Shown in pieces: positions 35,910-56,983 of a DNA stretch of 64,000 nucleotides. The stretch covers positions 1 to 64,000 of the forward strand of contig NZ_VFJB01000002.1 in assembly GCF_008362905.1 (NCBI RefSeq), given 5' to 3'. Each line of letters starts with the position of its first letter. Within the stretch, counting starts at the first letter, position 1. This DNA comes from Deferribacter autotrophicus (lineage in GTDB: Bacteria > Chrysiogenota > Deferribacteres > Deferribacterales > Deferribacteraceae). The notes beneath the pieces are model-generated. The model saw nothing but the letters and a program-made list of their open reading frames with translations. It was not told the DNA's origin and searched no databases. The translations under genes and the position numbers were made by a program.

Positions 35910-35935
35910 CTGGCATCACCACAATTTTTGCAAAT
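35910..35935 (+). repeat. Fragment of the inverted-repeat element family (copy D)
   Basis: CTGGCATCACCACAATTTTT followed by GCAAAT matches the left ends of the elements at 56772 and 54132 almost base for base. Similarity fades after about 26 bases, into a pyrimidine-rich stretch containing CCTCAAC that may be a remnant of the inner arm. No right end was found, so this is a decayed partial copy. Confidence 0.6.
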
Positions 35936-54121: not shown

Positions 54122-54278
54122 AAAATTTTTACTGGAGTCACCCCAATTTTTGCAAATAATCCTGTTCACACAAATTGAGAAAAATGTATTTCCTCAACTT
54201 ATTTCAGACTAAACAATTGATAATTATAAAAATAATTCTCCTGCTTATAAAAAATTGGGGTAACATCCAAAATTTTTA
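54122..54278 (+). mobile_element. Inverted-repeat element, copy C, with 10-bp flanking direct repeats
   Basis: The element body (54132-54268, 137 bases) begins CTGGAGTCACCCC and ends GGGGTAACATCC. Its ends are imperfect inverted repeats extending through AATTTTT/AAAAATT. It is flanked on both sides by the identical AAAATTTTTA (54122-54131 and 54269-54278), as expected of a target-site duplication. Its left and right arms match the copies at 56528 and 56772, but the internal hairpin region is absent. No coding capacity, so it needs a transposase from elsewhere. Confidence 0.7.
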
Positions 54279-56515: not shown

Positions 56516-56519
56516 CAAA

Positions 56520-56771
56520 AAGATCATTCTGGAGTCACCCCAAAATTCACAAAATAACATTTTCTAATACAGAGGAAAATATTTTTCGGGTTTAGGTTTC
56601 CAAAAAATCGCCATGGATGGCGATTTTTGAGAAATCTGCCTCGCAAGTGGCACCGGACGTGCCACGAGAATGAGAAAAATGTTTTCCTCTGTATTTAGTG
56701 CGTAACATACTGATAATACTCATAAAATTACTGCTCTTTTACAAAAAATGGGGTGACTCCAGAAAGATCCT
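56520..56771 (+). mobile_element. Structured inverted-repeat element, copy A
   Basis: The 236-base body (56528-56763) is bounded by perfect terminal inverted repeats TTCTGGAGTCACCCCA (56527-56542) and TGGGGTGACTCCAGAA (56749-56764). The flanks AAGATCAT and AAGATCCT agree at 7 of 8 and may be a target duplication. Inside, a 22-bp stem (one G-T pair) encloses two hairpins, one with perfect arms AAAATCGCCA/TGGCGATTTT and loop TGGA, the other GTGGCAC/GTGCCAC. No protein is encoded. It sits just upstream of the panB promoter. Confidence 0.75.
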
Positions 56772-56983
56772 CTGGCATCACCCCGATTTTTGCAAATTCC
56801 CTTATTCACACAAATTGAGGAAATACATTTTTCAGGCTCAAATGCCCATAAAACCTCCACGGACGGCGGTTTTAGAGGCATTTGCCTCGGAGCTTCTACT
56901 AGATGTAGAGCGAGAGTGAGAAAAATGTATTGCCTCAACTTATTACGGACATTTATAAATGATGAAAAAAAGAGTAACTTGAA
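56772..56983 (+). mobile_element. Structured inverted-repeat element, copy B (adjacent to copy A)
   Basis: It begins CTGGCATCACCCC. The outer stem TTGAGGAAATACATTTTTC pairs with GAAAAATGTATTGCCTCAA at 18 of 19 positions. Inner hairpins occupy the same places as in copy A but with different bases: CAAATGCC with GGCATTTG, and an apical CCACGGACGG. The right terminus has decayed (GAGTAACTTGAAAAAGAT against GGGTGACTCCAGAAAGAT). It lies in the same orientation eight bases from copy A. Confidence 0.7.

Follow-up and report, generated by a model that had tools for sequence, protein, structure and literature searches.

A recurrent three-way-junction core, probably an RNA, carried by unrelated MITEs in several bacterial phyla

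Two adjacent MITE copies, A and B, lie at positions 56520-56983 of the window, the whole 64,000-nucleotide stretch of Deferribacter autotrophicus DNA that was analysed, and they raise the question of what keeps an internal fold in an element of this kind. Bacterial MITEs are usually seen as passive decay products; the core described here recurs with unrelated ends and covaries at nearly every pair. The initial annotation had located the two copies at this place and named the collar pairings AGGTTTC/GAAATCT and CAAATGCC/GGCATTTG, and it was correct in both.

Copies A and B and their family in the genome

The features of copies A and B and of their relatives in the window are given below with the supporting evidence in brackets. 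R1 is a covariance model made from 22 copies of this genome, and R2 is a covariance model made from foreign hits, that is, hits in other phyla.

56529-56762, + strand: copy A, a complete MITE from TIR to TIR, 234 bp (TIR match; R1 core score 138.6 bits; sequence)
56529-56541, + strand: left TIR of copy A, CTGGAGTCACCCC, 13 bp (sequence; TIR family)
56750-56762, - strand: right TIR of copy A, GGGGTGACTCCAG as read on the + strand (sequence; TIR family)
56519-56525, no strand: AAAGATC, left flanking repeat of copy A, probably a target duplication, partly decayed (sequence)
56763-56769, no strand: AAAGATC, right flanking repeat of copy A (sequence)
56566-56694, + strand: structured core of copy A, the GGA strand being the + strand (R1 138.6 bits, R2 107.4 bits; covariation)
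56567-56587, + strand: outer stem of copy A, 5' side, partner 56674-56694 (both sides changed in 15/21 pairs, own copies)
56674-56694, + strand: outer stem of copy A, 3' side (pair changes in own copies)
56593-56600, + strand: collar of copy A, 5' side, partner 56631-56638 (covariation in own copies)
56631-56638, + strand: collar of copy A, 3' side (covariation in own copies)
56603-56628, + strand: first hairpin of copy A, with loop ATGGAT at 56613-56618, C-ANGGAN-G (near-invariant loop across phyla)
56639-56643, + strand: invariant junction CCTCG of copy A (cross-phylum alignment)
56647-56665, + strand: second hairpin of copy A, with loop CGGAC at 56654-56658 (A3: 7/7 pairs covary, 97.4% of cells paired)
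56666-56674, + strand: invariant junction GAGAATGAG of copy A; other copies have an IS110 insertion after GAGAATG (alignment; flanks)
56772 to about 56983, + strand: copy B, truncated, with left TIR CTGGCATCACCCC at 56772-56784 and core at 56812-56940 (R1 121.4 bits; sequence)
About 54132-54270, + strand: core-deleted copy of the copy A/B MITE, TIRs kept, flanks AAATTTTTA (TIR match; sequence)
35910-35930, + strand: solo TIR-like end of the copy A/B family with unrelated sequence behind it (TIR match; sequence)

Inspection of the sequence of copy B revealed no recognisable right TIR. The deletion in the core-deleted copy falls between two GAG triplets of the B-type stem. In RNA folding, copy A reached -104 kcal/mol against -49.2 for shuffled sequences (z -12.6), and copy B gave a z of -4.4 relative to shuffled sequences.

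R1 detected about 43 distinct core loci in the genome, where a DNA search found copies down to about 70% identity. The MITE ends are CTGGNGTCACCCC, and they enclose a core of about 128 nt in which an outer stem leads to two arms, each with a GGA loop. The TIR pattern CTGGNGTCACCCCATTTTTTG, with up to 3 mismatches allowed, matched the genome 87 times and the reversed control 0 times. Many copies are flanked by target duplications of 8-10 bp whose length is not perfectly uniform, for example TACTTGTTT (L024), TTATACAA (L014), and CAAAAATTA (L002). These matches and duplications bear out the transposon-like ends of the initial annotation. The core is missing from some MITEs that have these TIRs (L053, L055, L057, L063, L065, and the window copy at 54132-54270), so the core and the ends are separable. 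The first two of these core-less MITEs contain an unrelated dispersed repeat of the TCATTGCGAG...GAAGCAATCT type. We looked for an autonomous partner among the DDE_Tnp_1 genes, and none of the 3 in the genome has the MITE's TIRs. A TTGACA-N16-TTATTAA-like site on the complementary strand reads into the core in one subfamily only, and it was rejected as evidence for an internal promoter because it is too weak and limited to that subfamily.

Pairing, fixed letters, and the strand that folds

The compensatory changes noticed between copies A and B hold among the 22 own copies, where both sides have changed in 28 of 49 pairs. The covariation score of these copies is 0.484, compared with 0.183 after shuffling and no more than 0.128 after sliding of the partner. 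The covariation is not lost in larger alignments from other phyla, which were fitted to a covariance model. In a foreign set of 81 copies, 89.8% of the cells are paired, 47/49 pairs show both-side changes, and the score is 0.760; the corresponding values for a set of 78 copies are 91.3%, 45/48, and 0.880. Controls for the two sets reached at most 0.19 with shuffling and 0.17 with sliding. A model-free stem finder, which required 13 or more Watson-Crick pairs in an outer stem of 18 bp, recovered the stem in 90 of 111 distinct pattern hits and in 13 of 331 controls whose mismatched arms came from different elements.

The unpaired junction and the loops are the most conserved parts of the core. 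Near-invariant across phyla are CGG-N-TT, C-A-N-GGA-N-G, CCTCGGAG, C-N-GGAU-G, and CGAGAATGAG; the R2 source hits were selected by a pattern that required CCTCG, the second GGA, and GAGAATGAG, so the invariance of those letters is partly by construction, and CGG-N-TT and the first loop, which the pattern did not require, are exempt from this.

The mismatches of the outer stem indicate which strand folds. With the stem register chosen by Watson-Crick matches alone, the GGA strand has 77 G·T and 22 A·C mismatches (p 2.5e-8), and the ratio is 77:13 in A3. The own copies, taken alone, show no significant G·T excess (19:12 with the invariant wobble left out). Because G·T exceeds A·C, the GGA strand folds as a single strand. 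Strand-biased mutation from neighbouring transcription fails as an explanation, since the ratio is 33:10 in elements antisense to both neighbouring genes. A cruciform or the self-correction of a palindrome is unlikely because either would be symmetric and the mismatches are not. The initial annotation had left the choice between a folded RNA and a cruciform; a single-strand fold agrees with the counts and the cruciform does not.

Occurrence across phyla and constraint at fixed loci

Among the 51 genomes of the window's phylum, the core is present only in the window's genome and in the congener Deferribacter desulfuricans SSM1. A loose pattern applied to GTDB contigs found more than 119 stretches, many of them several times per genome, and R1 confirmed most of these with E down to 1e-17; a stricter sequence pattern gave no match over the genome contigs. 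The R1-confirmed carriers, a mixture of MAGs and isolates in which single MAG labels may be wrong, belong to Nitrospirota, Desulfobacterota (Deltaproteobacteria), Latescibacterota, Gemmatimonadota, Spirochaetes, Omnitrophota, and Nitrospinota. Desulfospira joergensenii is a cultured carrier, as is the Deferribacter species of the window. The highest R2 count was 108 copies, in a Nitrospirota genome of 2.0 Mb; two other Nitrospirota genomes gave 105 and 79, and a complete Nitrospiraceae chromosome gave 23. Of 198 Nitrospirota genomes scanned with R2, 31 carry the core and the remaining 167 gave no hit, a patchy distribution as expected of something mobile. Two viral contigs fit the loose pattern, yet viral spread was rejected on an R2 score of 13.6 bits.

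The core is much wider than the copy A/B MITE, and in other phyla it is carried by MITEs with unrelated ends. In a Desulfobacterales genome it lies inside a MITE with the TIR GTAACTATCCAG and 8-bp duplications, features that we take to be associated with the IS66 family. One Nitrospirota genome has two further TIR types, AAATCCAGC and GTCCGRTAAA. A TIR and an exact duplication occur together in 6 of 135 foreign elements and in 0 of 399 controls. Spread with TIRs and duplications is supported only for these few foreign copies. In three Nitrospirota copies (L121, L155, and L211), the first arm contains further, nested palindromic inserts.

One copy occupies an orthologous position in the window's genome and in D. 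desulfuricans, where its neighbours are an Fe-S/hdr-like gene on one side and etfB on the other (gene names deduced from the translations). At this single locus, 120 of 128 core positions are identical (94%) with no gaps. The TIRs of this copy are eroded, its spacers have diverged with indels, and identity at fourfold sites in the flanking genes is 43-50% (core versus fourfold sites, Fisher p 2e-21). Conversion cannot explain the conserved core in D. desulfuricans, because this is its single core copy and there is no other as donor. In three further syntenic pairs from other phyla, the helices differ wholesale while the loops and junctions stay. Since whole arms differ at syntenic loci, this stem turnover is likely due in part to copies exchanging arms, and the mosaic arms of L016 and L017, in which arms recombine between subfamilies as modules, agree. 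The selection on a folded structure that had been suggested from two copies is supported by covariation in own and foreign copies and by the strong conservation of an orthologous copy that is immobile.

Possible roles of the core and its insertions

We favour, with some reserve, the reading that the core is an undescribed three-way-junction module, probably an RNA, that binds a protein or another factor and is dispersed by MITEs. The GGA strand would be transcribed and fold into the outer stem with its two arms, a three-way junction. A C-G pair closes the GGA loop at the tip of each arm, CGG-N-TT, CCTCGGAG, and CGAGAATGAG are held fixed as junction strands, and the stems can change freely while remaining paired. 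MITEs of unrelated transposon families carry the module and would spread its copies within a genome; some copies may then stay put for a long time while selection at the host locus preserves their structure. A putative RNA-binding partner would most likely contact the fixed loops and junction. The data show the structure, the strand that folds, the breadth of occurrence, the presence in unrelated MITEs, and constraint at one orthologous locus, whereas an RNA rather than a single-stranded DNA nature, the protein binding, and the role of the complex are what we infer. A broader interpretation, for which our belief and doubt are evenly divided, is that the cores form an undescribed RNA class in at least 7 phyla, with as many as a hundred or so copies in a genome, spread on MITEs of unrelated families and fixed as host RNA genes, in which one functional RNA has been domesticated or exploited by many transposons. 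The cross-phylum core and the constrained fixed locus make the dispersal of functional RNAs by bacterial transposons a directly testable question.

Bacterial MITEs with stable folds, such as Correia/NEMIS, ERIC, and BOX, are short non-autonomous repeats. The core differs from them in that one covarying core recurs with unrelated TIRs in many phyla. A literature search of open-access scope found no description of the core family. Folding MITEs and REP-like repeats are already known; what is apparently undescribed, as far as we found, is one covarying core shared across phyla by unrelated MITEs.

The main rival, which we regard as unlikely, is that the core acts as folded single-stranded DNA, whose one-strand hairpin would be read by a recombinase or replication protein in the manner of integron attC sites or IS200/RAYT ends and kept for mobility. 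The kept structure, the free stem sequence, and the strand-specific wobble would fit this as well, and so would the many patchy (31/198 Nitrospirota genomes) and mostly intergenic copies, most foreign ones having no clear target duplication. However, own and several foreign copies show the TIRs and 8-10 bp duplications of double-stranded DDE transposition, and the conserved orthologous copy has lost its TIRs. Y1_Tnp (RAYT/IS200) is absent from the window's genome and from four carriers with 30-79 copies (G066, G074, G076, and G080), and a RAYT/IS200 mobiliser is not supported. REP/BIME repeats with their RAYT are, like the core, intergenic palindromes near gene ends and targets of the IS110 family, and IS elements in REPs have been described (PMC1525189). 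The core differs from them in its conserved three-way junction, its TIR-bounded carriers, and its independence of a RAYT. A plasmid of D. desulfuricans (G010, contig C2) carries 17 identical IS200-type tnpA copies on one strand.

Slightly less probable still is a cis-acting RNA in the transcripts of neighbouring genes, where the core would be a stabiliser or a processing or attenuation site, like REP/BOX. The elements are mostly intergenic, with only 6 of 66 between divergent promoters, and the 3' ends of genes are often 10-25 bp away, as such a role would have it. Their orientation argues otherwise. The window's genome (L071-L094) shows a strong bias: of 18 co-directional cases, 16 have the neighbours running antisense to the GGA strand (16:2), so read-through transcripts would carry the complement, and the wobble says that the GGA strand folds; the orientation is mixed in other phyla, with no significant bias (28:20). 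No recurrent neighbour gene suggests a partner, and the few clusters that do recur resemble common families and include no transposase.

We consider it improbable that the element is a sponge that sequesters the translation regulator CsrA. The loops C-A-N-GGA-N-G and C-N-GGAU-G of both hairpins correspond to the C-ANGGAN-G-type loops of CsrA-binding RNA, and csrA is present in 24 of 30 foreign carriers. But the GGA loops are kept in the window's genome (99.9% complete, about 43 element loci) and in D. desulfuricans, both of which lack csrA. In the 198 Nitrospirota genomes, csrA is not associated with carriage (19/31 carriers versus 99/167 non-carriers, p=1.0), MAG incompleteness affecting both groups alike. 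One Nitrospirota genome (G051, contig C54, 7147-7271 and 7341-7469) has csrA at a distance of about 70 bp from a core copy, probably by chance.

No Rfam family reached its gathering threshold, either in the window or at 18 foreign loci, and relaxed thresholds gave only partial resemblance. The best match was TwoAYGGAY (RF01731), with 42.6 bits against a gathering value of 43 and many own copies just below the threshold. This family has been proposed as CsrA-binding (PMC4333381). It resembles the core in having an outer stem and two hairpins with GGA loops; the match, however, extends over the outer stem and the first hairpin, and the second TwoAYGGAY hairpin is left unaligned to the second arm in the two best copies and pairs poorly in the third. 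The Csr/Rsm RNAs CsrB and RsmZ share the ANGGAN-loop hairpins, but the core has two or three GGA motifs only, is multicopy on MITEs, and is present without csrA. Since the GGA loops of the core persist where csrA is absent, caution is needed in calling GGA-loop RNAs such as TwoAYGGAY CsrA sponges by loop sequence alone.

It is very improbable that selection plays no part and that palindromes perfect themselves by template switching or inter-copy conversion, with fixed letters left from recent ancestors: arms do recombine between subfamilies and helices change wholesale at syntenic loci, but self-correction would be strand-symmetric, the unpaired junction and loops are the most and not the least conserved parts, and the single D. 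desulfuricans copy, with a core 94% identical against fourfold sites near 50%, has no conversion donor.

The invariant junction of the core is a target site for IS110-family elements. Such elements are inserted exactly after the core GAGAATG, with ATGAG resuming at the right end, in L007, L016, L017, and L027, and the same left junction occurs in L028, L030, L033, L035, L039, and L059. An IS110-family transposase of 337 aa (NCBIfam NF033542) is encoded in L031. A different insert starts at the same GAGAATG position in L020 (G000:C3:79323). A second small palindromic element, GGGTGTAGCAC...GTGCAACACCC, is found in L009, L021, L037, L039, L058, and L059, always after CGGGTTCA and in copies with different collars.
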